The translations under genes and the position numbers were made by a program. A model generated the notes under the pieces. The model saw only the letters and a program-made list of their open reading frames with translations, did not search any database and was not told where the DNA came from. A stretch of DNA of 64,000 nt from Allobosea sp. Root483D1. Its GTDB lineage: Bacteria > Pseudomonadota > Alphaproteobacteria > Rhizobiales > Beijerinckiaceae. The stretch lies in contig NZ_LMJW01000020.1 in the NCBI RefSeq assembly GCF_001429505.1, positions 259,644 to 323,643 of the forward strand, read 5' to 3'. Each line of letters begins with the position of its first letter. The stretch's first letter is position 1. Below are positions 1,093 through 22,700 of the stretch, one piece after another.

Positions 1093-2343
1093 ATGCGGAA
1101 GGCATTAATGGCCGCCGTCGCGGCGTGCGCTTTGATTGCGGCCGGAGGCACCGGCCAAGCTCAGGAAAAACTCAAGATCGGCGTATTGGCGACGCTCTCG
1201 GGCGCGCTGACCTCGGGTGGTGAGGACGGCGTACGCGGTGCTCAGGTCGCCCTGAAGCAGCGCGGCGGCAAGATCGCCGGCCGCGAGGTCGAGTTCATTA
1301 TCGCAGCGACCGATGCCAGCCCGGACTCGGCGCTGCGGGCCGCGCGCAAGCTGGTCGAGCAGGACAAGGTCCAGCTCATCCTCGGGCCGCTCTCCGGTTC
1401 CGAGGGCATCGCGATGCGCGATTACTCGAAGACCGTGCCCAACGTCACCGTGGTCGATGCATCCTCGGGCGCGCTCGAGACGACCTATGTCAACCCATCG
1501 CCGAATTACTTCCGTTTCAACAGCAACGGCGCGATGTGGATGGCCGGCCTCGGCGAGTATGTCTTCAAGGACAAGGGCTACAAGAAGCTCGCTGTCATCG
1601 GCGAGGACTACTCCTTCCCCTATACGCAGGTCTTCGGCTTCGCGCTCGGCTACTGCAAGGCCGGCGGCCAGATCGTCCAGCGTCAATGGGTGCCGCTCGG
1701 CACCAAGGATTTCGGCTCGGTCATCGCCAATATCCCTGATGACGTCGACGCGGTCTTCCTGGCGCTCGGTGGCGGCGATTCCGTGAACTTCCTCAACCAG
1801 TACGGCCAGACCGGCGGCAAGGCCAAGTTCGTCGGCGGCTCGATCATGGTGGACCAGACCGTGCTGTCGTCGCGCGGCAACGCCAAGCGCCTGCTCGTCG
1901 GCACGCCCTCCTCGGGCGGCGTCGCCGATGCCTGGGACGATCCGAAATGGAAGGCCTGGGTCAAGGCCTATCAGGATGCGTTCCCGGCGGATAAGCGCTT
2001 CGCCAGCCCGTCGCTCTTCGCGACCAATTACCACAACGCTTTCAATGGATTGGCGACAGGTTTGGAAAAGGTCAACGCCGACCTCTCCGACGGCGGCGCC
2101 AAGCTCCGGGCTGAGCTCGCCAAGGTCGAACTCGATGCTCCGAACGGGCCGATCAAGCTCGACGACAACCGGCAGGCGATCGCGACGACCTTCATCACCG
2201 AGGTCGTCGAGGCGCCGAACGGCGACCTCACCAACAAGTTCGTCAAGACGGTGCCGAACGTCTCGCAGACGCTCGGCCTCTCCGCCGAGGCGTTCAAGGC
2301 CGTCGGGCTTCCGTCCCGGACCAATCCGGAATGCAAGCCCTAG
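1093..2343 (+). CDS. Branched-chain amino acid-type ABC transporter, substrate-binding protein
   Basis: This 416-residue periplasmic binding protein is of the Leu/Ile/Val type (Peripla_BP_6 fold). Residues 1-23 form a Sec signal peptide ending in GTGQA, followed by the typical first strand KIGVLATLSGAL. Two Rossmann-like lobes follow, with ILGPLSGSEG in the first. The ATG at 1093 is preferred over GTG 1084 because GGGAGG (1079-1084) is well spaced from it. It is the first gene of a train with two permeases and two ATPases, so it should deliver the ligand to that importer. Members of this family often bind aromatics, amides or other carboxylates rather than amino acids; the downstream catabolic genes favour a non-amino-acid ligand, which is inference. 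Confidence 0.9.
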   Translation: MRKALMAAVAACALIAAGGTGQAQEKLKIGVLATLSGALTSGGEDGVRGAQVALKQRGGKIAGREVEFIIAATDASPDSALRAARKLVEQDKVQLILGPLSGSEGIAMRDYSKTVPNVTVVDASSGALETTYVNPSPNYFRFNSNGAMWMAGLGEYVFKDKGYKKLAVIGEDYSFPYTQVFGFALGYCKAGGQIVQRQWVPLGTKDFGSVIANIPDDVDAVFLALGGGDSVNFLNQYGQTGGKAKFVGGSIMVDQTVLSSRGNAKRLLVGTPSSGGVADAWDDPKWKAWVKAYQDAFPADKRFASPSLFATNYHNAFNGLATGLEKVNADLSDGGAKLRAELAKVELDAPNGPIKLDDNRQAIATTFITEVVEAPNGDLTNKFVKTVPNVSQTLGLSAEAFKAVGLPSRTNPECKP

Positions 2344-2510
2344 TCGCTTCCACCGACTGACTCCCCGGAAAGGCCGCGACCCGATCGCGTCCTTTCCGGC
2401 CTGCCGTCCCGCTCTGGTCAACGACGTCGCGCGATCCATGTGCGCCGTCGGGCGAAGGCTCACCTGATGAGGCAGCCTTGAGCCCACCGGGCATTGCTAC
2501 GCGAGGAGCC

Positions 2511-3365
2511 ATGAGTCGCGCAGTCGCGGTCTGCCACGGTCCATTCGGACGGGTGTCGATCTACGATCTCGACCGCCCACTGGTGGTGCATGCCCACCGG
2601 GAAGCTCATCTGATCTTCTTCCTCGACGGCTCGCGCGGGCTCGTGACCGTCAACGATTGTACCGTTCGGGTCGATCCGTTCATGGGCGTTGCGATCAATC
2701 CCTGGGAACCACATAATTTCCAACCGGAGCAGCCGGGGGCCTTCGGGCTCTTCCTTGTCGTCTATCTCAAGCCGGAATGGCTGGCGGCGCAGGCCATGCC
2801 GTCGGCCGGCTCGCTGGTCTTCCCCTCCTGCGAACTGGTCGTGACCCGCGAACTCGCCGCCTGGCGCGATCAGGCCGTCGAAATGCTGCTGTCGCAGCAT
2901 CGCGAGCTCAACCTTGCCCCGGTGCTGATGGCACTGGCGCAGGCGTCCAGCGAACCGATCGGGCCCGAGCTCGCCTCGTCACTGCTGCATCTTTCCGCTG
3001 AGGGCGCGATCGACCGGCGCGTGCTGCGCGCCTGCCGGCTGCTGGAGCAGCGTCCTTCCTGCGAAGGTGCGCTCGCCCGGGTTGCGCGCGAGGCCGGCCT
3101 GTCGCGCGCCCATTTCTTCAAGCTCTTCCGGGAACAGGTCGGGGTCACGCCGGCTGTCTTCTCCAATACGGTCCGGCTCGACGCGGCGCTTGACCGGATC
3201 GTTCTCTCGAGCGATCCGGTGACCAGCATCAGCCACCGCCTCGGCTTCTCCGGCCAGAGCGTGTTCACGCGCTTCTTTACCGCCCATATGGGCATGGCGC
3301 CCCGCGACTATCGCCGGGTGCTGCGCACCGTCGGCCTGCCGCAATCGCAGGCGAACCATGTCTGA
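2511..3365 (+). CDS. AraC-family transcriptional regulator
   Basis: A cupin-like sensor half carries a metal/ligand-site-like VHAHREAHLIFFLDG, and the C-terminal 100 residues form a double helix-turn-helix of AraC type (LARVAREAGLSRAHFFKLFRE, then SHRLGFSGQSVFTRFF). The product is 284 residues from ATG 2511 with GAGGAG two bases upstream. A TTG at 2478 behind GATGAGG is a possible longer start. It sits between the binding-protein gene and the permeases and overlaps the permease gene by 8 bases, so it probably senses the imported compound or its product and controls this operon. Confidence 0.88.
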   Translation: MSRAVAVCHGPFGRVSIYDLDRPLVVHAHREAHLIFFLDGSRGLVTVNDCTVRVDPFMGVAINPWEPHNFQPEQPGAFGLFLVVYLKPEWLAAQAMPSAGSLVFPSCELVVTRELAAWRDQAVEMLLSQHRELNLAPVLMALAQASSEPIGPELASSLLHLSAEGAIDRRVLRACRLLEQRPSCEGALARVAREAGLSRAHFFKLFREQVGVTPAVFSNTVRLDAALDRIVLSSDPVTSISHRLGFSGQSVFTRFFTAHMGMAPRDYRRVLRTVGLPQSQANHV

Positions 3366-4371
3366 TTTCATCGGTCGCCGCCCGATCTGGTCGCTGGTGA
3401 TCCTGATCGCGGTCGCTCTCCTCGCCTTTCTGATCTTCGCGGTCTGGACGCCGTGGATGGAGCTGACCTTCGGCCGGAAGCGCGTCTTCCTGAGCGCGCT
3501 CTTCAACGGCATCACGCTCGGCGGGCTGTATTTCCTCGTCGCCAGCGGCTTCACCCTGATCTTCGGCCTGATGCGCAACGTCAACCTGGCGCATGGCTCG
3601 CTCTATCTGTTCGGCGGCTATGTCGGCTACAGCATCGGCAACCTGACGGGCTCCTGGTTCGCCGCGCTGATCGGCGCCTTCGTGATCGTCGCCCTGGCCG
3701 GGATGCTGATGCAGGTGCTGCTCTTCCGCTGGATGGAGGGACAGGATCTGCGCCAGACGCTGGTCACGATCGGGCTCTCGATCATCGTCGCCGACCTGCT
3801 GCTCTGGGGTTATGGCGGCGACACCTTCCAGGTGACGACGCCGGACTGGCTGTCCGGGCCGATCCAGCTGCCTTTCGTCGTCGCGCTGCGCAGCAATGGC
3901 GAGGCGGTGATGATGATGTACCCGCTGGTCCGCATCGCCATCCTGGTCGGCGCTATCATCCTCGGCATCGCGATGTGGCTCGTGCTCAACCGCACGCGCA
4001 TCGGCATGCTGGTGCGCGCCGGCGTCGACGACCGCGACATGCTCTCGGCCACCGGCGTGCGCGTGCAGCTCGTCTTCATCATGGTCTTCGCCTTCGGGGC
4101 CGGGCTCGCCGGCCTTGCCGGCGTCGTCGGCGGCACCTTCCAGTCGCTGCAGCCCGGCGAGGACACCAAGATCCTTTTGTCCTCGCTCGTCGTCGTCATC
4201 GTCGGCGGCATGGGCTCGATCCAGGGCGCGGCGATGGGCGCGCTCATCGTCGGCCTCGCCGAGCAGTTCGGCTCGGTCTACATGCCGACCTATGCGGTGA
4301 TGCTGACCTTCGTCATCATGGTCGTGGTGCTGGCGATCCGGCCGCAGGGCCTGGCGGCGGTGAGGCGCTGA
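3358..4371 (+). CDS. Branched-chain-type ABC transporter permease (LivH-like)
   Basis: This 337-residue polytopic inner-membrane protein belongs to the LivH/BPD_transp_2 family. After one N-terminal hydrophobic segment comes the family block NGITLGGLYFLVASGFTLIFG, then NVNLAHGSLYLFGGYVG, and later the cytoplasmic coupling region near residues 215-230 (VRAGVDDRDMLSATGV). It is slightly longer at the N-terminus than the usual 290 residues. It overlaps the AraC gene by 8 bases and lies one base before the second permease gene. It would form the membrane channel with the LivM-like protein. Confidence 0.92.
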   Translation: MSDFIGRRPIWSLVILIAVALLAFLIFAVWTPWMELTFGRKRVFLSALFNGITLGGLYFLVASGFTLIFGLMRNVNLAHGSLYLFGGYVGYSIGNLTGSWFAALIGAFVIVALAGMLMQVLLFRWMEGQDLRQTLVTIGLSIIVADLLLWGYGGDTFQVTTPDWLSGPIQLPFVVALRSNGEAVMMMYPLVRIAILVGAIILGIAMWLVLNRTRIGMLVRAGVDDRDMLSATGVRVQLVFIMVFAFGAGLAGLAGVVGGTFQSLQPGEDTKILLSSLVVVIVGGMGSIQGAAMGALIVGLAEQFGSVYMPTYAVMLTFVIMVVVLAIRPQGLAAVRR

Positions 4372-4372
4372 G

Positions 4373-5461
4373 ATGGCGCTCGCAGAACCCCGCCTCGTCA
4401 GCGCGACGCCGCGCCCGCGCGAGGGGCTCAGTGAGGTGCTGGCGCGCCAGGGCGCCTCGTTCTGGATCGTCTCCGCGCTGCTGCTGGTGATGCCGCTGCT
4501 CGCGAGCCCCTTCTGGCTCGTCCAGATCCTCGCCTACGCGATGATCCTCGGCATGATTGCGCTCAGCCTGATGTTCCTCGCCGGCTATGGCGGCATCGTC
4601 AGCCTGGTGCAGATGACGGTCGCGGCCTTCGCCGCCTATCTCGTCGCCATCTTCGGCGACAGCGCCATCACCCAGATCAGCCTGAAATGGCCGTGGTGGA
4701 CGGCGGTGCCGGTCGCGATCCTGCTGGCTACGCTGTTCGGGACGCTGAGCGGCATGCTTTCGGTCCGGACCGAGGGCATCTACACGATCATGATCACGCT
4801 CGCGATCGGGTCGGCCTTCTATTACCTGACCCTGCAGAACTACACGATCTTCAACGGATTCAGCGGTTTCAACGGAGTTCTTCCGCCGGTCTTCCTCGGG
4901 GTCGACTGGGGCAGCACGGTGCCGTTCTACTATCTCGTGCTCGGCTGCGCCGCCCTGGCCTATGCGGTGGTCGTCTATGTCTCGCGCGCGCCCTTCGGCC
5001 TCGCTTTGCAGGGCACGCGCGACAACCCCAGGCGCATGGCGGCACTCGGCTTCGACGTCGTCGCCCATCGCATCGCCGCCTACGCTTTCGCGGCGGTGAT
5101 CGCCGCCTTCGCCGGGGTGTTGCTGGTCTGGTACCAGCGCCAGGTCTCGCCCGGGACGGGCGGGGTCGGGCCGGTGGTCGACATGCTGATCATCGCCGTG
5201 GTCGGCGGATTGAGCCGCCCGATCGGTCCCTTCATCGGCGCGCTGGTCTATGTGCTGCTGCGGACTTTCGCGCTCGATCTCCTCGACTGGGTCGGGTTCG
5301 AGGGCAAGCGCTATCAACTGCTGATCGGCCTCGGCTTCCTCGTCATCGTGCTGTTCTCGCCGGATGGGCTGGTCGGCATCTGGCAGCGCTTGCGCGACCG
5401 CTATCGTCGCAGCCGCGAGGCGCAGGCGGCGCAGATGCGGGCCGGTGGAGGCACGCCATGA
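4373..5461 (+). CDS. Branched-chain-type ABC transporter permease (LivM-like)
   Basis: A 362-residue membrane protein with the LivM pattern: GMIALSLMFLAGYGGIVSLVQ near residues 60-82, the TEGIYTIMITLA block, the coupling segment GTRDNPRRMAALGFDV, and the C-terminal GGLSRPIGPFIGALVYVLL. It pairs with the upstream LivH-like permease. Its end overlaps the first ATPase gene by 4 bases (ATGA), indicating translational coupling. The substrate cannot be deduced from the permease alone. Confidence 0.92.
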   Translation: MALAEPRLVSATPRPREGLSEVLARQGASFWIVSALLLVMPLLASPFWLVQILAYAMILGMIALSLMFLAGYGGIVSLVQMTVAAFAAYLVAIFGDSAITQISLKWPWWTAVPVAILLATLFGTLSGMLSVRTEGIYTIMITLAIGSAFYYLTLQNYTIFNGFSGFNGVLPPVFLGVDWGSTVPFYYLVLGCAALAYAVVVYVSRAPFGLALQGTRDNPRRMAALGFDVVAHRIAAYAFAAVIAAFAGVLLVWYQRQVSPGTGGVGPVVDMLIIAVVGGLSRPIGPFIGALVYVLLRTFALDLLDWVGFEGKRYQLLIGLGFLVIVLFSPDGLVGIWQRLRDRYRRSREAQAAQMRAGGGTP

Positions 5462-6246
5462 GCGCCGTGCCGAGCCTGGAACGCCTGAGCACCGCCGGTT
5501 CGGCCAATGCGCTGGAGCTGCGCGGCGTCTCGCGCCTGTTTGGGGCACTGGCGGCGCTGTCCGACATCACCCTGTCGGTCCGTCCCGGCGAGCGACGCGC
5601 CGTACTGGGCTCGAACGGAGCGGGCAAGACCACGCTGTTCAACTGCGTCACCGGCGATTTTTCGCCGAGCTCCGGCGTCATCCGCTTCTTCGGCGAGGAT
5701 GTGACGGCCTTCCCGCCGCATGAGCGCATCCGCCGCGGCCTCAGGCGCACCTATCAGATCTCGTCGCTCTTCGCCGGGCTGACGGTGATCGACAATGTCT
5801 ACCTCGCCTGTCGCGGGGTCTCGCGGAACCGCTTCTCGCTGCGCCGGCCGGGCCGCGACGATACGCTGCAGCATGCGGCCGAGAGCCTGGTCGACGCCGT
5901 TCACCTGACGGCCGTCAAGGACAGGCTCGTCGGCGAGCTCGCCTATGGCCAGCAGCGCCAGCTCGAGATCGCGCTCGCCCTCTCGGGCGCACCGCGCTTC
6001 ATCCTGTTCGATGAACCGGCGGCGGGCCTGTCGCCAGCCGAGCGGCAGGACCTCGTCCGGATCCTGACCTCGCTGCCGGCCCATATCGGCTACATCATCA
6101 TCGAGCACGACATGGACGTGGCGCTGCGCGTCGTCGAGAGCGTGACGATGATGCACAACGGCCGCATCTTCAAAGAGGGACGGCCGGACGAGATCGAGTC
6201 CGATCCCGAGGTACAGGAACTCTATCTCGGGGGCGGTCATGGCTGA
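5458..6246 (+). CDS. Branched-chain-type ABC transporter ATP-binding protein (LivG-like)
   Basis: A 262-residue nucleotide-binding subunit. Walker A is GSNGAGKTT at residues 51-59, the signature is the LivG-type variant [10 protein letters not shown] instead of LSGGQ, Walker B is [10 protein letters not shown], and a switch histidine follows in IIEHDMDV. The start overlaps the permease stop (ATGA) and the end overlaps the next ATPase gene by 8 bases. It should form the ATPase dimer with the LivF-like half of the next protein. Confidence 0.93.
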
Positions 6247-8473
6247 GCGCCTGAAAGCCCCGCCTGCCGCCGGCGTTCCGATCCTGCAGATCGCGGGGCT
6301 CAACGTCTTCTATGGCCGCTCGCACGCCGTCCAGGGCGTCGATCTCACGCTGCAGCACGGCGTGCTCTCGGTCATCGGTCGCAACGGCATGGGCAAGACG
6401 ACCATGTGCAAGGCGATCATGGGGCTGGTGCCGATCAGCTCCGGCTCGATCCGCTTCTTCGGCGAGGAGATCGCCGGCCGTTCCCCGGCGGAGGTGGCGC
6501 GGCTCGGCATCGGCTATGTGCCGCAGGGCCGGAGACTCTGGCGCTCGCTGACGGTCGACGAGCATTTGCGGCTGATGCAGCGCGGCAAGCGCGGCGCCTG
6601 GACGCCGGAGCGCATCTACGAAGTCTTTCCGCGCCTGGCCGAGCGCCGCAATAATGGCGGCGGCCAGCTCTCCGGTGGCGAGCAGCAGATGCTGGCGATC
6701 AGCCGGGCGCTGCTGCTCAACCCGCGCCTCCTCATCATGGACGAGCCGACCGAGGGGCTCGCGCCGGTCATCGTCGCTCATGTCGAGGAGATGCTGGTCC
6801 GGCTGGCCGATCAGGGCGACGTCGCGATCCTGGTGATCGAACAGAACATCGGCGTCGCCACCCAGATGTCCGATCCGGTGGCGATCATGGTCAACGGCCG
6901 GATCAACCGCATCATCGCCTCGGCGACGCTGGCTGGCGACCGCGAATTGCAACAGCGCCTGCTCGGCGTCGGCCGCCATGGCCATGACGAGACCGATGCG
7001 GTGCCGGAGGCAGCACGTCCCGGCCCGGCCGGACAGGCCGCCTCCGCCACCTCAAGCGGGCCGATCCGCGTCTATGTCTCGAACCCGGTCATCCCGAACC
7101 GCTGGTCGCAAGCCGTGCCGGCCGCACGGATCGAGGCCCAGGCCCGCACCATTTCGCGCCCGATGCTGGCGACGCGCGATGGCCAGGCGGTCCGGCCGCT
7201 CGCGGCCGCGGCAATCAGCGAGCCTTATGTCGTCGTCGCCGGTACGCTCGACACCAAGGGCGAGGAGCTGCGCTTCATCCGCGACCTGATCCGGGCCGAG
7301 GGCTTGCGTACCCGCCTCGTCGACCTCTCGACCTCAGGCCGCAGCGCCGGCGGCGACGTCACCCCGCAGGAGGTCGCCCTCGCTCACCCGAAAGGTTCGG
7401 CCGGCATCGCCTCGGGCGATCGCGGCACCGCGGTCGCGGCGATGACCGAAGCGTTCAAGGCCTGGCTGCCGCGCCAGCAGGGCCTCCTCGGCATCATCTC
7501 GGCCGGCGGCTCGGGCGCGACCGCGATGGTGACGCCGGCGATGCAGGAACTGCCGGTCGGCCTGCCCAAGCTGATGATCTCGACCATGGCGTCCGGCGAT
7601 GTCCGCGCCTATGTCGGAGCCGCCGACATCACGATGATGCACGCCGTCACCGATGTGCAAGGCGTCAACCGCGTCTCGCGGCTCGTGCTCGGCAATGGCG
7701 CGCATGCCATCGCCGCCATGGCCAAGGCCCGCCTCGCCGAGCTGAAGCCCGAGGCGCCGCGCCGCCGCGAGGCCGAGAAGCCGCTGGTCGGGCTCACCAT
7801 GTTCGGTGTGACCACCCCTTGCGTGCAGCAGGTCTCCAGGCTTCTCGCCGATGAATGGGAGCCGCTGGTCTTCCATGCCACCGGCACCGGCGGGCGTGCC
7901 ATGGAGAAGCTGGTCGATTCCGGCCTCGTCGGCGCGGTAATCGACGTCACGACCACCGAGATCTGCGACCTGCTGATGGGCGGCTTGCTGCCGGCGACGG
8001 AGGACCGTTTCGGCGCGGTCATCCGCACTCGCATTCCCTATGTCGGCTCTGTCGGCGCGCTCGACATGGTCAACTTCTTCGCGCCCGAGACGGTCCCGGA
8101 ACGCTATCGCGGCCGGCTGCTATATCCGCACAACCCGCAGATCACGCTGATGCGGACCACGGCGGAAGATAATGCGCGCATGGGCCGCTGGATCGGCGAG
8201 CGGCTGAACCAGATGGAAGGGCCGGTCCGCTTCCTGCTCCCCGAGCTGGGCGTCTCCGCTTTGGATGCGCCCGGCCAGGCCTTCCACGACCCGGCAGCCG
8301 ATGCGGCGCTGTTCCAGGCGCTGGAGCAGACGGTGCGCACCGGCCCCGGCCGGCAGCTGATCCGCCTGCCGCTCCACATCAACGACCCCGCTTTCGCCGC
8401 CGCTTTGGTGCAGCAGTTCCGCGCGCTGCACGCCGGCAGGCGCCGCGAGCGGGCCGGCGGAGGCAGGACATGA
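6239..8473 (+). CDS. LivF-like ABC ATPase fused to Tm-1-like (UPF0261) domain
   Basis: This 744-residue protein has two parts. Residues 1 to about 245 are a complete LivF-type ATPase: Walker [10 protein letters not shown] (47-55), signature LSGGEQQ (about 143) and Walker [13 protein letters not shown] linker of about 80 residues follows. From about 327 ([20 protein letters not shown]) to about 735 is a Tm-1-like ATP-binding domain (UPF0261), with [11 protein letters not shown] and the block [12 protein letters not shown]. Plant Tm-1, which inhibits tobamovirus replication, carries this domain; bacterial versions have no settled function. The stop overlaps the next gene (ATGA), which encodes the TIM-barrel that in plant Tm-1 is the C-terminal half. 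The open frame continues through both parts, so the fusion appears genuine. Confidence 0.88.
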
Positions 8474-9345
8474 CGAGCTTCGACAAGAAAACCCTGCTGA
8501 AGCGTTTCCGGGCGATGATCGCCAGGGGCGAGCCGATCGTCGGTGGCGGCGCCGGCACGGGCCTGTCGGCCAAATGCGAGGAAGCCGGCGGCATCGACCT
8601 GATCGTGATCTACAACTCCGGCCGCTACCGCATGGCCGGCCGCGGCTCGCTCTCCGGGCTGATGCCCTATGGCGACGCCAACGCCATCGTCATGGAGATG
8701 GCGGCCGAGGTGCTGCCGGTGGTCAGGAACACGCCGGTGATCGCCGGCGTCTGCGGCACCGATCCGTTTCGGCGCATGGACGTCTTCCTCGACGATATCA
8801 GGCGCCTCGGCTTTTCCGGCGTGCAGAACTTCCCGACCGTCGGGCTGATCGACGGCACCTTCCGCGCCAACCTCGAAGAGACCGGCATGGGCTTTGGCCT
8901 CGAGGTCGAGATGATCGCCCTTGCCAACGCCAAGGGTCTGCTGACCACGCCTTACGTCTTCTGCGAGGACGATGCCCGGGCGATGGCCAAGGCCGGGGCC
9001 GACATCATCGTCTGCCATCTCGGCCTCACCACCGGCGGCTCGATCGGCGCCGGGACAGCGCTCAAGCTCAAGGATTGCCCGGCGCTGGTCGAGCGCTGGG
9101 CCAAGGCTGCGCTCGCCGTGAAGAAGGATGCGATCATTCTCGTCCATGGCGGGCCTGTCGCCGAGCCGGCCGACGCCGACTTCATCATGAAGAACACGGT
9201 CAACTGCCACGGCTTCTACGGGGCATCCTCGATGGAGCGCCTGCCGGTCGAGGTTGCGATCCGCGATCAGACCCGCGCCTTCAAGCAGATCGGCCGCGAC
9301 CTCAAAACCAGCAAGCCGGCACGCAAGCCCGGCAAGACGAAATGA
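8470..9345 (+). CDS. Phosphoenolpyruvate hydrolase-family TIM-barrel protein
   Basis: This 291-residue protein has the features of the PEP_hydrolase/TIM-barrel family: [20 protein letters not shown] near the N-terminus, [14 protein letters not shown], then the strand [13 protein letters not shown] and [13 protein letters not shown]. In plants the same barrel is the C-terminal domain of Tm-1. In bacteria it is commonly encoded next to a UPF0261 gene, as here, where the two overlap by 4 bases. The reaction is unproven despite the family name. Its place inside a catabolic operon suggests a lyase or hydrolase acting on a carboxylate, which is inference. Confidence 0.85.
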
Positions 9346-9372
9346 CCCGGACTCGGGCGGGAGGATGATGAC

Positions 9373-14003: not shown

Positions 14004-14014
14004 GGAGGCGCGCC

Positions 14015-14497
14015 ATGGCCAAGCTCCCGGTCCAGTTCCGCCTCAACGGCAGCGATCGCGCCACCTTCGTCGATCCGGCGAGCAATCTGCTCGATACGCT
14101 TCGGCGCGGGCTCGGCGATTTCGGCCCGAAATATGGCTGCGGCCAAGGCACCTGCGGCGTCTGCACCGTGCTGGTCGACGGCGAACCGCAGCTCGCCTGC
14201 CTGACGCTCGCTGTCTCCTGCGAGGGTCGCCAGATCGAGACCACCTCCGGCATGGCTGATGGGCCTGATCTGCATCCGCTGCAGGCCGCCTTCATGGACC
14301 ATTTCGCCGCGCAGTGCGGCTTCTGCACGCCGGGCATGCTGACCGCCGCGCGGGTGCTGCTGGCGAAGAACCCCCAGCCGAGCCGCGACGAGGTCGTTGA
14401 GGCGATCAGCGGCAACATCTGCCGCTGCACCGGCTACGAACCGATCATCGCCGCCATCCTCGCCGCAGCGGGCGCGCCCGGCGCGCGCCGGGCCTGA
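14015..14497 (+). CDS. Molybdenum hydroxylase, 2Fe-2S small subunit (CoxS-like)
   Basis: A 160-residue iron-sulfur subunit with all eight expected cysteines: the plant-ferredoxin cluster YGCGQGTCGVCTVLVDG plus LAC, and the second cluster CGFCTPGM with NICRCTGYEPII. It carries electrons from the molybdenum site to FAD. The start is set by GAGGAGG at 14002-14008 just after the upstream stop. Its length is normal for the family. It lies between the FAD and molybdopterin subunit genes. Confidence 0.95.
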   Translation: MAKLPVQFRLNGSDRATFVDPASNLLDTLRRGLGDFGPKYGCGQGTCGVCTVLVDGEPQLACLTLAVSCEGRQIETTSGMADGPDLHPLQAAFMDHFAAQCGFCTPGMLTAARVLLAKNPQPSRDEVVEAISGNICRCTGYEPIIAAILAAAGAPGARRA

Positions 14498-14511
14498 AGA
14501 AGGAGCCTGCC

Positions 14512-16272
14512 ATGTTCGAGATGCGCAAGGACCTGTTCGCCGACGAGCGCGACGACAATCTCAACGTCGTCGGCAAGGGCATGCAACGCCAGGACATGCC
14601 GGGCCATGTCACGGCCCGCACTCGCTTCTTCGACGACCACGCCTTCGACGGCATGCTGCATCTCAAGGTGGTGCGCAGCCCGCATCATCATGCCCGCATC
14701 CGCGCGATCGATACCTCGGCCGCCGAGCGCGCGCCCGGCGTCAAGCGCGTGCTGCGCGGCGCCGACGTCCCCGTGAACAAGAACACGCTGCTCAGCCTGA
14801 TCAATTTCGGCAAGGACGACGAGCCGTCTCTCGCGGTGAGCAAGGCCAGCTACAAGGGCGAGCCGGTCGTCGCGATCCTCGCCGACAGCGAGGCGCAGGC
14901 GCAGGCGGCCCTCAAGCTGGTCCGGATCGACTATGATCCCCTGCCGGCGGTGTTCGACGTCGAGGAGACGCTGAAGGCCGGCGCGCCGGTGGTCAACGAG
15001 ACCTATCCCGGCAACTACTTCGAATATCACGAGCGCTTCGACCATCAGAAGCTGCGCTTCGGCGATGTCGAGCGCGGTTTTTCCGGCGCCGACATCGTGA
15101 TGGAGCATCGCTACCAGATGTCGCCGATCGAGCATGCGCCGACCGAGACCAACGGCTCGATCGCTGCGCCCGAGCAGAATGGCCGCTTCGTCGTGCACTC
15201 CTGCGCCCAGGGCCTGTTCTTCGCGCTCGGCACCACCGCCAAGATCGTCAATGTCGAGTCGAACCAGCTGCATTTCATCGGCGGCACGGTCGGCGGCGGT
15301 TTCGGCGGCAAGGTCGACTCGCTGACCGAGCCGCTCGCCGTACTCGGCGCGATGCTGACCGGCAGGCCGGTGCGCTTCGTGCTCGATCGCGAGGAGGAGA
15401 TGCTCTACGGCTCGCCGCGCGGCGCCGAGCGCATCTACATCAAGGACGGGCTGATGCGCGACGGGCGGATCGTCGCCCGCCACATCCGCAGCTATTTCGA
15501 CGCCGGCGCCTATACGCGGCTGTCGAGCTATGCCGCGATCAAGTGCACGGCGCATGTGCCGGGGCCGTACTGGATCCCCAACGTCGCCTCCGACATCTAC
15601 GTCGCCTACACCAATCGCTGCCCGTCCACCGCCATGCGCGGCTTCGGCGTCACCGCGGTCGACTTCGCGCTCGAAGTCCAGATGGACCGCCTCGCCGAAG
15701 CGGCGAACATGGACCCGATGGAGCTGCGTATCCTCAACGCCTATCGCGATGGCGACATGAAACCGCATCGGCGCGCCGCAAAGAACACGGCGCTGGTCGA
15801 ATGCGTGCAGGTCGCAGCCGAGAAGGCGAACTGGCCGCTATCCGAGCAGGCGAAGCGGGCGTCCTCGCTGATCGGCGGCGGCGCCGGCGAGCGCGCGCAG
15901 ATCCCGGCGACCCAGCTCGACGCCCGCGGCCAGATCGGCCGGCCCGATACGCGCAGCGGGCCGGTGACGCAGGTGCTGCCGGCCGGCACGACAAGGATCG
16001 CGCCGAGCAAGCAGCCAGTGATGGAAGGCGCCCGCGACGGGCACGCCGCGCCGACGCAGGTACCACGCTACGAGCCGCCACGGCCCACCGCCCCTCCGGC
16101 TCCACCGCCCTACCAGCCGACCCCTTCCCCTTACCAGCCGGCCGGCTCGCATCCGGCGCCGCCCGCCTACCAGCTACCACCCGCTCCGCCTGCCCCGCCG
16201 CCGGCGGCGCCAGCGCAGACCCAGCACGGCGCGGTGCGGTTCTCGTCGGTTTTCGGCACGAGGAGGCGCTGA
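14512..16272 (+). CDS. Molybdenum hydroxylase large subunit, N-terminal half, with Pro-rich tail
   Basis: Of 586 residues, about 1-445 correspond to the first part of a CoxL/XdhB large subunit: an Ald_Xan_dh_C a/b-hammerhead region (KVVRSPHHHARI), then the first molybdopterin-binding domain with GGTVGGGFGGK and the active-site loop STAMRGFG. Homology stops near residue 450, where a normal large subunit would continue. A tail of about 135 residues follows, rich in Pro, Ala and Tyr (for example PPRPTAPPAPPPYQPTPSPY). The missing second half is encoded by the next gene, one base on. CO dehydrogenases have a Cys loop here; this protein has RGFG, so it is a hydroxylase of other type. Confidence 0.85.
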   Translation: MFEMRKDLFADERDDNLNVVGKGMQRQDMPGHVTARTRFFDDHAFDGMLHLKVVRSPHHHARIRAIDTSAAERAPGVKRVLRGADVPVNKNTLLSLINFGKDDEPSLAVSKASYKGEPVVAILADSEAQAQAALKLVRIDYDPLPAVFDVEETLKAGAPVVNETYPGNYFEYHERFDHQKLRFGDVERGFSGADIVMEHRYQMSPIEHAPTETNGSIAAPEQNGRFVVHSCAQGLFFALGTTAKIVNVESNQLHFIGGTVGGGFGGKVDSLTEPLAVLGAMLTGRPVRFVLDREEEMLYGSPRGAERIYIKDGLMRDGRIVARHIRSYFDAGAYTRLSSYAAIKCTAHVPGPYWIPNVASDIYVAYTNRCPSTAMRGFGVTAVDFALEVQMDRLAEAANMDPMELRILNAYRDGDMKPHRRAAKNTALVECVQVAAEKANWPLSEQAKRASSLIGGGAGERAQIPATQLDARGQIGRPDTRSGPVTQVLPAGTTRIAPSKQPVMEGARDGHAAPTQVPRYEPPRPTAPPAPPPYQPTPSPYQPAGSHPAPPAYQLPPAPPAPPPAAPAQTQHGAVRFSSVFGTRRR

Positions 16273-16273
16273 G

Positions 16274-17317
16274 ATGGCCCGTCACGAAGGCCGCGGCATG
16301 GCCTCGGTCAACTATCCGATCGGCATGAATCTCGGCGGCGATCCAAGCCAGGCGCTGATCCATTCCAACCCCGACGGCAAGTTCACCGTCGCGCTCTCGG
16401 CGATCGATCTCGGCCAGGGCATGAAGCAGGTCTCGCGCCAGATCGCGGCCGAGACGCTCGGCGTGCCTGTCGAGGACGTCTATGTCGACACCGCCGACAG
16501 CGACACCGGCCCGCACGACATGGGCTCCTTCGCCTCGCGCGGCACGCACCGGATGGGCAACGCCATCATCGTCGCCGCCCGCGAGGCCCGCGGCGTCCTG
16601 CTCGAAGCGGCGGCCGAGGAGCTCGAGGTCAACGCCGCCGACCTCGTCACCGATGGGCGCGGCAACATCCATGTCCGCGGCGCACCCTCGCGCAGCATCA
16701 CGGTCAAGGCGACGGCGCAGGCGGCGCAGTTCAAGCAGGGCAAGACCATCGCCGGGCGGGGCATCTTCCTGATCCCGCTCTCGGCTGTCGATGCCGAGAC
16801 CGGCGAGATGAACCCGAACACCGCCTTCGCCCATGCCTGCCTCGTCGCCGATGTCAGCGTCGACGACGAGACTGGCGAGGTCGAGGTGCTCAGGATGACC
16901 AGCGCCTATGAGCTCGGCCGCGTCATCAATCCGCGCATGGTCGAGCAGCAACTCGTCGGCGGCGCCTGGATGGGCATCAGCCACGCGCTCTATGAAACGC
17001 CAGAGCCGTACTACCCCAGCCCCGAGCACGGCCCGCGCGACTTCAACGAATACCTGATGCCGGGACCGGGCGACATCGCGCCCTATCACGTGACGGTGCT
17101 GGAGCGGCCGGCACCGGACGGCCCGTTCGGCGGCAAGGGCCCGGGCGAGATGTGCGCCAACCCGGTGCTGCCGGCGGTCGCCAACGCCGTCTACAACGCC
17201 ATCGGCGTGCGGGTCGACGAATTGCCGATCACGCCGGAGAAGATCCTGCGCGGCATCAAGGCCAATGGCGGCGTCAAACCGGGCCCACGGCGTGGCGGCC
17301 CGGTGAACTGGCGGTGA
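16274..17317 (+). CDS. Molybdenum hydroxylase large subunit, C-terminal half
   Basis: This 347-residue protein corresponds to the second molybdopterin-binding part of the CoxL/XdhB large subunit: GMASVNYPIGMNLGG, the Q-loop IDLGQGMKQVSRQI, VDTADSDTGPHDMGSFASRG, and the catalytic-glutamate motif GGKGPGEMCANP near the C-terminus. It presumably assembles with the preceding N-terminal half to build one active site. The frame differs from the upstream gene, it has its own ATG and one intergenic base, so it is a separate polypeptide and not simple readthrough. Confidence 0.87.
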   Translation: MARHEGRGMASVNYPIGMNLGGDPSQALIHSNPDGKFTVALSAIDLGQGMKQVSRQIAAETLGVPVEDVYVDTADSDTGPHDMGSFASRGTHRMGNAIIVAAREARGVLLEAAAEELEVNAADLVTDGRGNIHVRGAPSRSITVKATAQAAQFKQGKTIAGRGIFLIPLSAVDAETGEMNPNTAFAHACLVADVSVDDETGEVEVLRMTSAYELGRVINPRMVEQQLVGGAWMGISHALYETPEPYYPSPEHGPRDFNEYLMPGPGDIAPYHVTVLERPAPDGPFGGKGPGEMCANPVLPAVANAVYNAIGVRVDELPITPEKILRGIKANGGVKPGPRRGGPVNWR

Positions 17318-17321
17318 CGCG

Positions 17322-18206
17322 ATGGCGCTGAGGACGACCGTCGCCGGCATCTCCAGCCCCGAGGACCTTGCCGAGGCCCTCCAGGCGGCGATGTATCTCG
17401 CCGATGACGGCATCGCGACGGCCGGCTACCTCTCGCTTGCGCTCGGCAAGCCGCTGCTGCTCGAAGGCGCGCCCGGCGTCGGCAAGACCGAGGCCGCCAA
17501 GGCGCTCGCCGGCATTCTCGGGCGCCAGCTCATCCGCCTGCAGTGCTTTGAAGGCATCGACGCGGCGGCCGCACTCTACGAGTGGAACTATCCGCGCCAG
17601 ATGCTCGCCATCCGCCAGGCGAAGGAGGGCGAGCAGCTCGACATCTACCGCGACGACTTCCTGATCGAACGACCGATGCTGACGACGCTGCGGCGGCCGG
17701 AATCGACCGTGCTGCTGATCGACGAAATCGACCGCTCCGACCATGAATTCGAGGCCTTCCTGCTCGAATTCCTCTCGGATTTCTCGATCTCGATCCCCGA
17801 GCGCGGCACGCTGCGCGCGGCCGAGCGGCCGGTCGTGATCCTGACCTCGAACCGCACGCGCGAACTGCATGAGGCGCTGCGCCGCCGCTGCGTCTACCAC
17901 TACATCGCCTATCCCGAGCCCGAGCGCGAGGCGCAGATCATCATGCTGCGCTCCTCGGCCGTTGCCGAGAGCACGGCCCGTGCCGTCGTCCAGGCCGTCG
18001 GGCTGCTGCGGCAGGAGCCGCTGGCCAAGCCGCCGGGCGTCGCCGAGGCGGTCGACTGGGCCGAAGCCGCGACGGCTCTGGCGCAGACCGGCGCGACCTG
18101 GCCGGAAGCCTTCCGCCGCTCGCTCGGCGCCGCGATCAAGGACGAGGAGGACCTCGCGCACTTACGGCCGCGCCTGCCGCTCTTCATTCCGGGGCTGGCG
18201 GCATGA
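17322..18206 (+). CDS. MoxR-type AAA+ ATPase (CoxD-like)
   Basis: A 294-residue AAA+ protein with Walker A EGAPGVGKTEAAKAL, Walker B VLLIDEIDRSD, and the MoxR-type sensor block VILTSNRTRELHEALRRRC. In CO-dehydrogenase clusters CoxD is such an ATPase, and with CoxE it helps mature the active site. Here it lies directly after the hydroxylase large-subunit halves and overlaps the VWA gene by 4 bases, the same arrangement, so a chaperone role in enzyme assembly is the best inference. Confidence 0.9.
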   Translation: MALRTTVAGISSPEDLAEALQAAMYLADDGIATAGYLSLALGKPLLLEGAPGVGKTEAAKALAGILGRQLIRLQCFEGIDAAAALYEWNYPRQMLAIRQAKEGEQLDIYRDDFLIERPMLTTLRRPESTVLLIDEIDRSDHEFEAFLLEFLSDFSISIPERGTLRAAERPVVILTSNRTRELHEALRRRCVYHYIAYPEPEREAQIIMLRSSAVAESTARAVVQAVGLLRQEPLAKPPGVAEAVDWAEAATALAQTGATWPEAFRRSLGAAIKDEEDLAHLRPRLPLFIPGLAA

Positions 18207-19318
18207 TCGCGCCGCTCCCCGCCGCTGTCCGCCTCTTCGTCGCCTTTCCGGCGCTGCTGCGCGAGCACGGCATCGCGGTCGCGCCCGAGCAGACGACCAG
18301 CTTCCTGATGGCGGTCGAATTGCTCGGCCCGCTCAGTATCGAGCATATCCGTAAGGCCGCCGTCGCGACGCTCGCGCCCCATCCCGAGCAGCGCGAGCTT
18401 TTCGATGCGCTGTTCGACATGCATTTCCTCGGCGGCGCCCTCGCTGAGCCCGGCGACGACGATTTCGCGCCTGACGAGGATATCTCGGTCCAGGAGGACA
18501 CCGGCTCGCGCGAGGTGCTGATCGGCGACGAGGCCAACGAAACCGGCCAGGCCGCGACCGGCGCCGAGGCTTTGTCGGTACGCCAGCTCAAGACCCTGGG
18601 CGAGAGCGAGACTCTGCGCCGCTTCGGCCGGGCGCTGCCGGCCGCTTTGCCCCGCCGCCGCGGTTACCGTCACAGGGCGGCGCGGCGCGGCCCGATCGTC
18701 GATCTCGCCCGCAGCCTCAGGGACGCAATCCGCCATGATGGCGAGGTGATGAGCCTGAAGCGGCTCCGCCGCGTGACGCGGCCGCGGCCGATCCTGCTGA
18801 TGATCGACGTCTCCGGCTCGATGAAGCAACGCAGCGACGCCAACCTCGCTTTGGCCCATACGATCGTCCACGCGACCCGGCAGGTCGAGGTCTTCACCTT
18901 CGGCACGAGGCTGACCCGCGTGACGCGGGCGCTCAGGCGCAAGCGGCGCGAGCAGGCGCTGGCGGAGGCCTCCGGCCTCGTCGCCGACTGGGATGGGGGC
19001 ACCCGCATTGGCGACGCGCTGCAGGCCTTCCTCGCCGTGCCCCGCTTCGCGTCCTACGCCCGCGGTGCCATCGTCATCGTGCTCTCGGACGGTCTCGAAC
19101 GCGGCGATCCATCGGCGCTGGTCGGCGCGGTCGCTCGGCTCGCCCAGCGCGCCCATCGCATCGACTGGCTGACACCGCTGGCGGCCGATCCCGGATACCG
19201 GCCCGAAACCGAGGCGCTCAGGCTGATCGCGCCGCGTCTTGCGAGCCTCTCGGACGGCGGCAGCACGGCGCGGATCTGCCGGCACATCCTTTCGCTCGGA
19301 GGCACGCAAGCGGCATGA
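18203..19318 (+). CDS. VWA domain protein (CoxE-like)
   Basis: A 371-residue protein with a C-terminal von Willebrand A domain. The MIDAS motif is present (LLMIDVSGSMKQ, DxSxS) with the later WDGGTRIGDAL threonine and IVIVLSDGLERGD. The N-terminal half carries an acidic stretch and a basic RRRGYRHRAARRG segment, as in CoxE proteins. The gene overlaps both the MoxR gene and the amidohydrolase gene by 4 bases. MoxR-VWA pairs act as chaperones that remodel metal enzymes, here most likely the adjoining molybdenum hydroxylase. Confidence 0.9.
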   Translation: MIAPLPAAVRLFVAFPALLREHGIAVAPEQTTSFLMAVELLGPLSIEHIRKAAVATLAPHPEQRELFDALFDMHFLGGALAEPGDDDFAPDEDISVQEDTGSREVLIGDEANETGQAATGAEALSVRQLKTLGESETLRRFGRALPAALPRRRGYRHRAARRGPIVDLARSLRDAIRHDGEVMSLKRLRRVTRPRPILLMIDVSGSMKQRSDANLALAHTIVHATRQVEVFTFGTRLTRVTRALRRKRREQALAEASGLVADWDGGTRIGDALQAFLAVPRFASYARGAIVIVLSDGLERGDPSALVGAVARLAQRAHRIDWLTPLAADPGYRPETEALRLIAPRLASLSDGGSTARICRHILSLGGTQAA

Positions 19319-20196
19319 CCGGAATCGTCGACGCCCATTTCCACATCTGGCGGCAGGCCGACCTGCCCTGGCTGCTCGGGCCGATGCAGCCGCGCATCTT
19401 CGGGCCCTATGAGCCGATCCGGCGCGACTACCCGGTCACGGAATATCTCGGCGATTGCCAACCGGCGGGCGTGACCGAGGCCGTCTACGTCCAGGCCAAC
19501 TGGGCAACCGACCGCTATCTCGACGAAGTCGCCTACGTCTCGCAGGCATCGGAGGAATCAGGCTTCCCGATCGCCATCGTCGCCTATGCCGACATGCTCG
19601 CCGGGGATGTCCGCCCGCAGCTCGACCAGCTTGCGCGCAATAACCGGGTGCGCGGCGTCCGCATGCAACTGCACTGGCACGAGAACACGCTCTACCGCTT
19701 CGCCAGCGGACCCGACCACGCACGCGATCCGCGATTGGTCACCAATGTCGGGCGGCTCGCCGATTACGGCTTCAGCTTCGACCTCCAGGTCTTCGCCAGC
19801 CAGATGGCAGGCGCCGCCGAGCTCGCCGCCGCCTGCCCGGACGTGACTTTCGTGCTCCAGCACGCCGGCATGCTGGAGGACCTCTCGCCGGAAGGCATCG
19901 CCGCCTGGCGCGAGGGCATGAGGCTGCTGGCAGCCCAGCCCAACATCGCCAGCAAGCTCTCGGGCCTCGGCACTTTCCTGCGCCGCAACGTTCCCGAGAC
20001 CATCGCCTTCATCGCCAGCGAGACGCTTGCCCTGTTCGGTGCCGGGCGCTGCCTGTTCGGCTCCAATTTCCCGATCGAGAAGCTATGGACGACTTACGCC
20101 GAGCTGATCGAGGCGCATCGCGCCGCCGTGCCCGAAGCGGCGCAGGCCGCCGTGTTCAACGAGACTGCAAGGCGGGTCTACCGCCTCAGCCAATAA
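19315..20196 (+). CDS. Amidohydrolase-family (PF04909-type) hydrolase
   Basis: A 293-residue TIM-barrel hydrolase: the HxH metal motif near the N-terminus (IVDAHFHIW), the mid-barrel QLHWHEN and FVLQHAGML histidines, and the C-terminal LFGSNFPIEKLWT. Many relatives (2-pyrone-4,6-dicarboxylate lactonase, decarboxylases, fuconolactonase-like enzymes) have this shape; the late metal Asp is replaced by Asn here, a known variant. The gene overlaps the VWA gene by 4 bases. It probably hydrolyses a ring-opened or lactone intermediate formed by the upstream hydroxylase. The precise substrate is unknown. Confidence 0.85.
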   Translation: MTGIVDAHFHIWRQADLPWLLGPMQPRIFGPYEPIRRDYPVTEYLGDCQPAGVTEAVYVQANWATDRYLDEVAYVSQASEESGFPIAIVAYADMLAGDVRPQLDQLARNNRVRGVRMQLHWHENTLYRFASGPDHARDPRLVTNVGRLADYGFSFDLQVFASQMAGAAELAAACPDVTFVLQHAGMLEDLSPEGIAAWREGMRLLAAQPNIASKLSGLGTFLRRNVPETIAFIASETLALFGAGRCLFGSNFPIEKLWTTYAELIEAHRAAVPEAAQAAVFNETARRVYRLSQ

Positions 20197-20208
20197 GTCA
20201 GGGGAGGC

Positions 20209-21063
20209 ATGTCCATGGCGCTCGAAATCAAGATTCTCGACTATGGCGACATCGAGCTGGAATCGAGCTTCCTCGTGCTCGGCCGCGATTGCGGCCGTAC
20301 AAGGCGCGTGCCGACCTATGGCTTCCTGATCCTCGGCGGTCCCTGGCCGGTCGTTGTCGATACCGGCTACCGCCACAACCAGATCATGGAAAGCCTCGGC
20401 ATGCGCGGCCTCCAGTTCCACGAGAACATGATCGAGAACCAGCTCGCCAAACACGGCGTGCGGATGGGCGACGTGCGCTATGTCATGCACACCCATCTCC
20501 ATATCGACCATGCCGGCAAGGACGAGCTCTTCCCGATGAACACCACGGTGCTCGTCAACCGGCGCGAGCTCGAATACTCCGTCTCCGGGCTGATGCACCC
20601 GCAATATCCGGCGCCCGACATCAAGCACCTGATCGACCGGCTCCATACGCGCGACGCGCTGCGCTTCGAGGATCTCGAACTCTCGGGGATGATCGAGCTC
20701 TTCCCCGGCTGCTATCTCGAAGCCGCTGGCGCCCATACTGAAGGCTCGATGAACGTCCATGTCGACACCAATGAGGGCCGCGCCATCATCTGTGGCGACG
20801 TGATCTACGACTTCAACGACCAGATCGTCACGCCCTTCCACGAGCTCCACGCCAACGAGCCCCGCACCACCGGCAATCACGGCGTCTCCAAGCGCGAGGA
20901 GAAGGCAGCGATCAAGAAGCTGCTCTCAGCCGGGGCGTTCCTGCTGCCGGTGCACGACAAGCCCGCCAAGATCGCCCATGGCCAGGTCGTCGGCCGCATG
21001 GACATGGCGGTGCCCGGCCCGGTGGTGCAGTCGCTGCCGGCCCGCAACTGGTTCGCGGCCTGA
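20209..21063 (+). CDS. Metallo-beta-lactamase-fold lactonase (AHL-lactonase-like)
   Basis: A 284-residue MBL-fold hydrolase with the zinc motif MHTHLHIDHAGKDE (HxHxDH), a later metal His in GAHTEGSMNVHV, an Asp in IICGDVIYD, and a C-terminal LPVHDKPAK histidine. This is the pattern of the N-acyl-homoserine lactonase family. A strong site AGGGGAGG precedes ATG 20209. In this operon a role in opening a lactone formed during substrate breakdown seems more likely than quorum quenching, but sequence cannot separate the two. Confidence 0.85.
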   Translation: MSMALEIKILDYGDIELESSFLVLGRDCGRTRRVPTYGFLILGGPWPVVVDTGYRHNQIMESLGMRGLQFHENMIENQLAKHGVRMGDVRYVMHTHLHIDHAGKDELFPMNTTVLVNRRELEYSVSGLMHPQYPAPDIKHLIDRLHTRDALRFEDLELSGMIELFPGCYLEAAGAHTEGSMNVHVDTNEGRAIICGDVIYDFNDQIVTPFHELHANEPRTTGNHGVSKREEKAAIKKLLSAGAFLLPVHDKPAKIAHGQVVGRMDMAVPGPVVQSLPARNWFAA

Positions 21064-21077
21064 CGGGCGCCGGCATC

Positions 21078-22700
21078 ATGACCACGCATGTCGCCATCCA
21101 GCCCAGCTTCGCCGATCTGATCGACCTCTGGGCGTCGGTGCGCCAGCTCGGCACCGGCTTCGAGTTCTGCGAGGGACCGATCTGGCATCCCGCCGAGCAG
21201 CATCTGCTGTTCTCGGACATGCCGGGCGATGTGCGCCGCCGCTGGGACCGGAACGGCGTTCGCGAGGTCATGCGCCCGGCCAACAAATGCAACGGCATGA
21301 CCTACGATGCCGGGCTCGACCTGATCGTCTGCGAGCACAGCACGTCGAGTCTCGTCCGCGAGCGGCCGGACGGGCAGCATGAGACCATCGCCTCGCATTT
21401 CGAGGGCATGGAGCTCAACAGCCCCAACGACGTGGTCGTGAAGTCTGACGGGGCGATCTACTTCTCCGACCCCTGGTATGGCCGCATGCCGGTCTTCGGC
21501 GTCGAGCGGCCGCGCCAGCTTGGCTTCCAGGGTGTCTACCGCATTCCGCCCGGCGGCGGAGCACCGCAACTCCTGGTCGACCGCTATCTCTTCGACCAGC
21601 CGAACGGACTCTGCTTCTGCCCGAGCGAGGATCGCCTCTTCGTCAACGACACCGTCCAGCACACTATCCGCGTCTTCGACGTCAAGCCGGACGGCCGGCT
21701 CGGCTCCGGCCGGATCTTCGCCTCCGGCATCGTCGGCCCCGAACCCGGCGTACCCGACGGCATGAAATGTGATGCGCAGGGCAATATCTGGGTCACCGGC
21801 CCCGGCGGCGTCTGGGTCTATTCGATCAAGGGCGAATTGATCGGCAAGCTGCGGGTGCCGGAGCTCGTCGGCAATCTCACCTGGGGCGGGCCGGACTGGC
21901 GCACGCTCTTCCTCACCGCGAGCCATTCGCTCTACGCGGTCGAGACCAAGGTCGGGCCGCGCCGCGAGCCCTACATGAAGGCTGCCGCCCAGCAGCCCGG
22001 CCGCAGCGCCGCGGCGGAGCGGCCGCTCGCTGACGCCAGCCCCGCTGCCTCCGTCTCGGCCAACGGCACGAAGAAGGCCGCTTCCGGCTACCGGCTCGAT
22101 CCGTCGCGCTGCGCCCTGATCATCCAGGACATGCAGAACGACGTCGTCATGGAGGGCGGCGCCTTCGCCAGCTCGGGCTCGCCGGAGCATTGCCGGCAGC
22201 AGAACGCGATCGCCAATGGCGCGCGCCTGGCGCAGGCGGCGCGGGCGCGCGGCATCCCGGTGATCCATGTCTGGTTCGTCGTCGAGGCCGGCACGCCCGG
22301 CGTCACCATGAATGCGCCGCTGTTCGAGGGCCTGGCCGACGCCAAGGCGCTGGTGCGCGGCACCTGGGGCGCAGCGCCGGTGCCCGGCCTCGAAGCGCAG
22401 AGCGGCGACCATATCGTCGAGAAGCAGCGCATGAGCGCCTGGGAGGGCACGCGGCTGGAAACCGTGCTCAAGGCGCTCGGGCGCGACATCGTCATCGTCA
22501 CCGGCGCCTGGACCAACATGTCGATCGAGCACACCGCCCGCACCGGCGCCGACAAGGGCTATTTCATGGTGGTGCCGGAAGACGCCTGCTCGACGATGAA
22601 CGCCGAATGGCACACGGCCTCGGTCAACTATGCGCTGCAGAATGTCTGCGTGGTGACAGATGTCGAGGCTGTGATCGCCGCAACGGACAGCCGCGCCTAG
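21078..22700 (+). CDS. SMP-30/gluconolactonase fused to isochorismatase-like domain
   Basis: This 540-residue protein has two enzyme-like parts. Residues about 20-300 form a six-bladed SMP-30/gluconolactonase propeller (FEFCEGPIWHPAEQHLLFSD; NSPNDVVVKSDGAIYFSDP; DGMKCDAQGNIWVTGPGG). After a low-complexity linker (about 305-335), residues 336-535 form an isochorismatase-like cysteine hydrolase with Asp351 (LIIQDMQND) and Lys449 of the usual triad. The nucleophile position in GAWTNMSIEHTA is Ser482 instead of Cys. So the second half may be altered or inactive as an amidase. Last gene of the train, 14 bases after the lactonase. Confidence 0.87.
   Translation: MTTHVAIQPSFADLIDLWASVRQLGTGFEFCEGPIWHPAEQHLLFSDMPGDVRRRWDRNGVREVMRPANKCNGMTYDAGLDLIVCEHSTSSLVRERPDGQHETIASHFEGMELNSPNDVVVKSDGAIYFSDPWYGRMPVFGVERPRQLGFQGVYRIPPGGGAPQLLVDRYLFDQPNGLCFCPSEDRLFVNDTVQHTIRVFDVKPDGRLGSGRIFASGIVGPEPGVPDGMKCDAQGNIWVTGPGGVWVYSIKGELIGKLRVPELVGNLTWGGPDWRTLFLTASHSLYAVETKVGPRREPYMKAAAQQPGRSAAAERPLADASPAASVSANGTKKAASGYRLDPSRCALIIQDMQNDVVMEGGAFASSGSPEHCRQQNAIANGARLAQAARARGIPVIHVWFVVEAGTPGVTMNAPLFEGLADAKALVRGTWGAAPVPGLEAQSGDHIVEKQRMSAWEGTRLETVLKALGRDIVIVTGAWTNMSIEHTARTGADKGYFMVVPEDACSTMNAEWHTASVNYALQNVCVVTDVEAVIAATDSRA

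Follow-up and report, generated by a model that had tools for sequence, protein, structure and literature searches.

Does a long train of co-directional genes that joins an importer, a flotillin and a molybdenum enzyme form one functional unit, and what might such a unit do? The question is raised by positions 1093-22700 of a 64,000-nucleotide stretch of contig NZ_LMJW01000020.1 from Allobosea sp. Root483D1, the whole of which we call the window. The locus is probably a conserved catabolic operon of new architecture, and a mobile one; we found no published description of this gene combination in openly licensed PubMed Central papers. Its gene table, compiled from open reading frames (ORFs) and Pfam matches, holds 19 genes, all on the plus strand. 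Downstream of the second gene, which encodes an AraC-type regulator (2478..3365), neighbors are spaced by -8 to +27 bases, and overlaps of 4 or 8 bases occur at 6 of the 18 junctions. Promoter-like sites between 900 and 20800 are at chance level (2 observed versus a mean of 2.1, sd 1.7, for the sigma-70 consensus only), as are terminator-like sites (9 observed versus a mean of 6.6, sd 2.5), and the block as a whole resembles one transcription unit. Given the single strand, the short or overlapping junctions and these chance-level sites, the gene train described in an earlier sequence-only reading, with gaps of 27 bases or less past the second gene and several overlaps of 4-8 bases, holds with two corrections. 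That reading had the direction right but counted eighteen genes instead of 19, and it named LivF apart from UPF0261 and a single large subunit (CoxL) for a molybdenum (Mo) enzyme; in fact one protein joins LivF to UPF0261, and the Mo large subunit is divided between two genes.

To follow the gene order into other genomes, a check that the sequence-only reading had called for, we used the LivF::UPF0261 fusion protein as a query against 397 genomes of the order. Every one of them matches, the ATP-binding cassette (ABC) ATPase part being common; with both parts required in one stretch, the fusion is found in 57 genomes, the source genome counted (a hand count of the match listing). We took in 55 of the 56 other fusion loci (G183 was left out) and mapped the window proteins on them. 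In 38 of the 55, two of them cut by contig ends, Mo-hydroxylase genes stand behind the same block of importer, UPF0261, flotillin and SRPBCC genes (type A). Another 11 carry the importer, fusion, flotillin and SRPBCC genes without the Mo genes (type B), and four stop at a contig end. Conservation of the Mo-hydroxylase version in 38 loci rules out a chance or local pile-up of genes. Thirteen family labels are represented among the type A loci. Within the family to which the window belongs the fusion is patchy, occurring in 2 of 20 sampled genomes. When pairwise-identity matrices are compared for 10 proteins from 34 loci and the window, they correlate with r values of 0.59-0.93, which points to co-inheritance, though vertical descent would also produce it. 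Named type A copies reside on plasmid p1_Teo12 of Shinella zoogloeoides (L172) and on a plasmid of Yoonia sp. SS1-5 (L174); together with 36 loci of the order they make up the 38 analysed type A loci to which the counts below refer. Type B-like named copies occur in Variovorax paradoxus, Variovorax sp. J22R187, Reyranella soli and a Rhizobacter metagenome-assembled genome. A contig search with two ABC-ATPase peptides has no census value, the matches listed being mostly ordinary LivF proteins. Wider flanks were taken in for 17 type A genomes, in all of which the gene for the substrate-binding protein adjoins the cluster (downstream in one) and the terminal gene of the train, an SMP-30::isochorismatase fusion, is present.

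The two cluster types differ in their redox genes. In type B, SRPBCC protein 2 is fused to a zinc-type dehydrogenase/quinone-reductase-like domain (Pfam on L173; sequences L074 and L078-L080), and the Mo-hydroxylase of type A takes the place held by this fusion. The importer, UPF0261, PF09370 (in most loci), flotillin and SRPBCC genes thus form a core that is combined with differing redox and hydrolase genes. Four type A genomes (L188, L180, L185 and L182) share an ORF upstream of AraC that looks on visual inspection like an iron-containing alcohol dehydrogenase; at this place in the Yoonia copy (L174:8218-10749), genes for such a dehydrogenase and for an aldehyde dehydrogenase are annotated.

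The importer of this core comprises a periplasmic substrate-binding protein (SBP; Peripla_BP_6, 1093..2343), LivH-type (3358..4371) and LivM-type (4373..5461) permeases and a LivG-type ABC ATPase (5458..6246), all recognized by Pfam. They are followed by the fusion, a proposed import-coupled kinase (6239..8473; Pfam and fold). It is a single protein of 744 residues in which a LivF-type ABC ATPase (~6239-6967), with Walker and signature motifs invariant in 15 aligned sequences, precedes a UPF0261/Tm-1-like domain (~7214-8470). The latter scores 200 bits with PF06792 and 298 bits with PF23189 (cut-off 27 each). Foldseek matched it to 3wrw (TMq 0.86) and 9mpy (TMq 0.58), and its solved relatives are tomato Tm-1 and 9mpy, the acetovanillone-bound structure of Saro_1862, a UPF0261 protein from Novosphingobium aromaticivorans. 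The DTK, GGS-G, H--G-GG and HNPQ motifs are common to 9mpy and the window domain. Acetovanillone catabolism in N. aromaticivorans starts with the single-component kinase MarK, according to PMC13101465, and Saro_1862 is probably MarK. By this analogy, the fusion to an importer ATPase suggests import-coupled phosphorylation by a putative kinase domain. Despite the shared fold and motifs, the window domain differs from Saro_1862 in being fused to the ATPase of an ABC importer and paired with PF09370. Furthermore, the Hpe and Acv acetovanillone pathways include biotin carboxylase genes, as described in PMC13101465, whereas none was seen among the 19 genes of the window. The linker between the ABC and UPF0261 domains (7064-7150) contains a conserved segment with five residues (Y279, N282, P283, R288 and W289) that are invariant in 15 sequences.

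Adjoining the fusion is the gene for a PF09370 TIM-barrel protein (PEP_hydrolase-like; 8470..9345). Its structural model (mean pLDDT 75.9) is a TIM barrel that matches PDB 2p10 best and then, weakly (TM ~0.53), the phosphoenolpyruvate mutase/isocitrate lyase superfamily and many other barrels. UPF0261 and PF09370 co-evolve as partners, as stated in PMC5028733. The same two domains (UPF0261 and PF09370-type, or TBST) function together in plant Tm-1-like proteins, where they are fused (PMC5028733); in the window, by contrast, UPF0261 is fused to the ABC ATPase and PF09370 is separate. In three loci the fusion and the flotillin have a gene for a TrpF-like (PRAI) TIM barrel between them (L063:7218-7895, L072:7572-8288 and L073:8019-8681; Pfam on L063 only), and L063 has no PF09370. 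A third context of the trio is found on a conjugative plasmid of Bosea vestrisii (L175:11256-14515), where UPF0261, PF09370 and one SRPBCC gene lie behind a sugar-type ABC importer and a ThuA-domain gene.

The Mo-hydroxylase is encoded by four genes, for a FAD subunit (CoxM-like, 13182..14003), a 2x[2Fe-2S] iron-sulfur subunit (CoxS-like, 14015..14497) and the two halves of the Mo large subunit: CoxL-N (Ald_Xan_dh_C and MoCoBD_1, 14512..16272) and CoxL-C (MoCoBD_2, 16274..17317). A CoxD-like AAA+ ATPase (17322..18206; NCBIfam MadB_ATPase below cut-off) and a CoxE-like VWA protein (18203..19318) follow as predicted maturases. The Mo halves are separate ORFs in 38/38 analysed type A loci, which rules out a frameshift or assembly error; the one ORF that holds both (L199) is a paralogue. 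The GGGFGG, AMRGFG and GPGEM motifs of the Mo enzyme are invariant, and so are the Walker motifs and MIDAS-like residues of the CoxD/CoxE pair. In gene types and in their order (M-S-L-D-E) the set resembles the aerobic CO dehydrogenase cluster (coxMSL, coxD, coxE), but the AMRGFG active-site motif, the split L subunit and the scores with the CoxL family TIGR02416 (151 bits for the N half and 113.4 for the C half, against a cut-off of 991.15) set it apart, and motif and score rule out CO dehydrogenase. The label CoxMSL-like, given to the hydroxylase in the sequence-only reading, is therefore loose. The closest solved relatives of both halves are the Mo subunits of nicotinate dehydrogenase (3hrd_A for CoxL-N and 3hrd_B for CoxL-C; 195.7 and 166.5 bits), a pair divided at this domain boundary too and likewise accompanied by separate FAD and iron-sulfur subunits. 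Unlike nicotinate dehydrogenase, the window enzyme, known here from its genes, has a C-terminal extension on CoxL-N and CoxD/CoxE-like genes behind it. The extension consists of ~80-190 residues, Pro/Ala-rich, variable in length and probably disordered (15844..16236 in the window), and then RF-x(n)-RRR and a stop (RFSSVFGTRRR in the window, 16237..16269). This ending is found in 39/39 type A proteins (the window, the 36 loci of the order, L172 and L174) and, of the 13,173 ORFs scanned across the fetched loci, in no other. Docking tags typically take this form, a peptide at the end of a flexible linker, and we infer a comparable role here. As for encapsulin-type cargo peptides, the window has a peptide and a linker, but no shell family appeared in Pfam scans of the 19 genes. 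In family f18, a GFA-domain or EamA transporter gene lies between the Mo halves (L052:15330-15692 and L063:16752-17741).

A candidate docking partner is the giant flotillin (9373..12276), which passes the Pfam cut-offs for both of its domains, SPFH (Band_7, 66.1 bits; cut-off 23.6) and Flot (113.6 bits; cut-off 27). It differs from flotillins such as FloT (FloT equivalog, 37.6 versus 700 bits) in its size, 967 residues, and in the very long coiled coil between the two domains (~9967-11904), which repeats with a period of 44 residues (4 x 11). We measured the length of the coiled coil between two fixed landmarks in 53 proteins and found 568-854 residues in 41 type A proteins versus 257-425 in 12 of type B, so that the coil of any Mo-hydroxylase cluster exceeds those of all the other clusters. 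Divided by 11, the lengths leave a remainder of 7 in 45 of the 53 proteins and of 4 in the other 8; there are 19 distinct lengths, although many proteins share theirs by descent. Whatever its length, the coil thus stays in hendecad register, a behavior to be expected of parallel helices packed into a wall. Steps of 44 residues found no support in a subset, and all 53 proteins show 11-residue steps. The flotillin, which the sequence-only reading had already taken for a scaffold gene of the cluster, is a constant partner, present in all 38 analysed type A and in 11 type B loci.

Two SRPBCC proteins (12288..12725 and 12728..13180) and three terminal hydrolases complete the gene set. The hydrolases are a lactonase-like Amidohydro_2 protein (19315..20196; NCBIfam L-fuconolactonase, 91 bits against a cut-off of 400), a lactonase-like hydrolase of the metallo-beta-lactamase fold (MBL; 20209..21063) that has weak relatives among 4-pyridoxolactonase and acyl-homoserine-lactone lactonases and whose metal motif, HTHLHIDH, does not vary across 24 aligned sequences, and the SMP-30/gluconolactonase-like::isochorismatase-fold fusion (21078..22700). 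We propose the following route through these proteins. The branched-chain/urea-type ABC importer (SBP, LivHMG) would take up a small polar compound, most likely a hydroxylated aromatic or heteroaromatic one, and because LivF carries the C-terminal UPF0261 domain, the putative kinase, the compound may be phosphorylated, and so trapped, while it enters. PF09370, as the regular partner of UPF0261, and the SRPBCC proteins could then handle the phosphorylated or released intermediate; the Mo-hydroxylase, matured by the CoxD/CoxE-like pair, would hydroxylate the ring, and the three lactonase-like hydrolases would open it. The flotillin would serve as a membrane scaffold on which the Mo enzyme is held by the C-terminal peptide on its long flexible linker. 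We give this scheme, taken whole, about an even chance of being correct. If it is, it describes an ABC importer with import-coupled phosphorylation through direct fusion, places this flotillin among the few in bacteria with a definite enzymatic client and a recognizable docking tag, and predicts a catabolic pathway in many soil Alphaproteobacteria. The cluster also offers a genetic handle on the roles of UPF0261, PF09370 and bacterial flotillins, all still poorly understood.

Several observations weigh against this scheme. Two of the 55 fusion loci (L058 and L064) have the importer, fusion and PF09370 without flotillin or Cox genes, though the sequence continues. PF09370 is itself missing from 3 of the 38 analysed type A loci (found in 35), and MBL is present in 16 of the 17 flank-covered genomes and missing in G277. 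The relationship of the three hydrolases to known lactonases is weak in each case, with scores below the NCBIfam cut-offs. The closer solved relative of the UPF0261 domain is plant Tm-1, a virus-resistance protein. Finally, the lengths of the flotillin and of the Mo-subunit linker do not correlate (Spearman 0.04, p 0.79), so that a docking model with matched rulers is not supported.

The absent correlation also favors the best of the competing explanations, an ordinary catabolic operon with a passenger flotillin that shields the membrane from a hydrophobic substrate, and a Mo tail that acts as a non-specific basic membrane anchor near the quinone pool. The peptide RFSSVFGTRRR is basic and aromatic, as a lipid-binding tail could be, and its docking partner is only putative. 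A mere passenger is, however, at odds with a flotillin that never leaves the type A and type B loci counted above and with a coiled coil that changes only by 11-residue steps and reaches its greater lengths wherever the Mo enzyme occurs. We consider the passenger explanation possible but rather improbable. The most specific form of the scheme proposed here, a membrane station similar to group translocation in which a kinase-bearing importer hands over to a Mo-hydroxylase docked by its peptide on a hendecad flotillin wall, with an exchangeable redox module (the SRPBCC-fused zinc-type dehydrogenase being the alternative), is put forward tentatively, at perhaps one chance in four. It would give substance to the membrane-organized assembly line suggested in the sequence-only reading. 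What is bold in the proposal, and testable, is the kinase coupled to import and the hydroxylase docked on a flotillin.

A second alternative holds that the cluster encodes a pathway of the nicotinate- or xanthine-dehydrogenase type for an N-heterocycle, with UPF0261 and PF09370 as regulatory proteins and no kinase. The kinship of the divided Mo subunit with nicotinate dehydrogenase is in its favor, as is the resemblance of the nucleotide-binding domain and SBP of the importer to the urea-transporter families UrtE and UrtA, although the NCBIfam cut-offs are not reached. Equivalog cut-offs for xanthine dehydrogenase, on the other hand, are missed by far (pucD, 264.8 versus 783.65 bits), and 9mpy binds an aromatic ketone. 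The isochorismatase-fold domain (22065-22697) also speaks against an N-heterocycle. Alignment to RutB and 3kl2 fixes the column of the catalytic Cys, the nucleophile of amide-opening relatives, and Ser stands there in the window and in 18/18 full-length homologues; the first Asp motif is kept, and the Lys motif was matched by pattern in 12 of the 18. This replacement makes a classical amidase role unlikely, and the cyclic lactam that the sequence-only reading had suggested as a possible substrate loses ground with it. Overall, we regard the N-heterocycle pathway as unlikely, slightly more so than the passenger flotillin.

The least probable explanation, a functionless peptide whose RRR end merely reflects translation of the Shine-Dalgarno sequence (AGGAGG) in front of CoxL-C, draws on AGG AGG being the commonest codon pair at RRR and on CoxL-C starting 1 base past the stop in the window, but it is largely rejected by five loci (L052, L061, L063, L072 and L073) that keep RRR across 582-1147 bases between the Mo halves, four of them with codons other than AGG-AGG-CGN, and by the RF-S part, which lies outside any ribosome site and varies synonymously in its codons. 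The same observations indicate that the C-terminal peptide of the Mo enzyme, proposed above as a docking tag, is selected as protein.

How the cluster reached its present site can be read in part from a congener. In G366, which carries the closest copy, the cluster aligns from 949 to 22688 at 91%, and nothing further aligns in a 47-kb stretch. The right flank of the window (24416-33786) is syntenic elsewhere in G366 at 88%, and in G301 at 87%. Between -14794 and 23469, beside the 3' end of a tRNA-Met gene (23523..23599, minus strand), the source genome has ~38 kb of DNA that includes the cluster, compared with ~1.1 kb in G366. The extra DNA and the different site in G366 support the mobile context that the sequence-only reading had taken for horizontal acquisition, and horizontal transfer of the cluster is likely. 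No convincing copy of 23440-23620 was found on the far side as a direct repeat of the tRNA end; no integrase was found among the seven neighboring ORFs scanned, the island not having been scanned in full; and the G+C content of the cluster is like that of the rest, with no sign of foreign base composition. The same reading had the cluster bracketed by IS30 and IS3 elements and a tRNA gene. The tRNA-Met and a broken IS3-type transposase remnant (22754..23400, plus strand; Pfam HTH_21 and HTH_Tnp_1) are indeed present, but the upstream fragment (124-387, minus strand), whose motif looks IS30-like, has no Pfam match. The same extra DNA beside tRNA-Met contains, ~2-12 kb upstream of the window, a type I secretion block (L213:6724-17330), with an RTX-repeat protein of 2284 residues that carries an animal-haem-peroxidase domain, an ABC exporter and a second RTX/cadherin-like protein.

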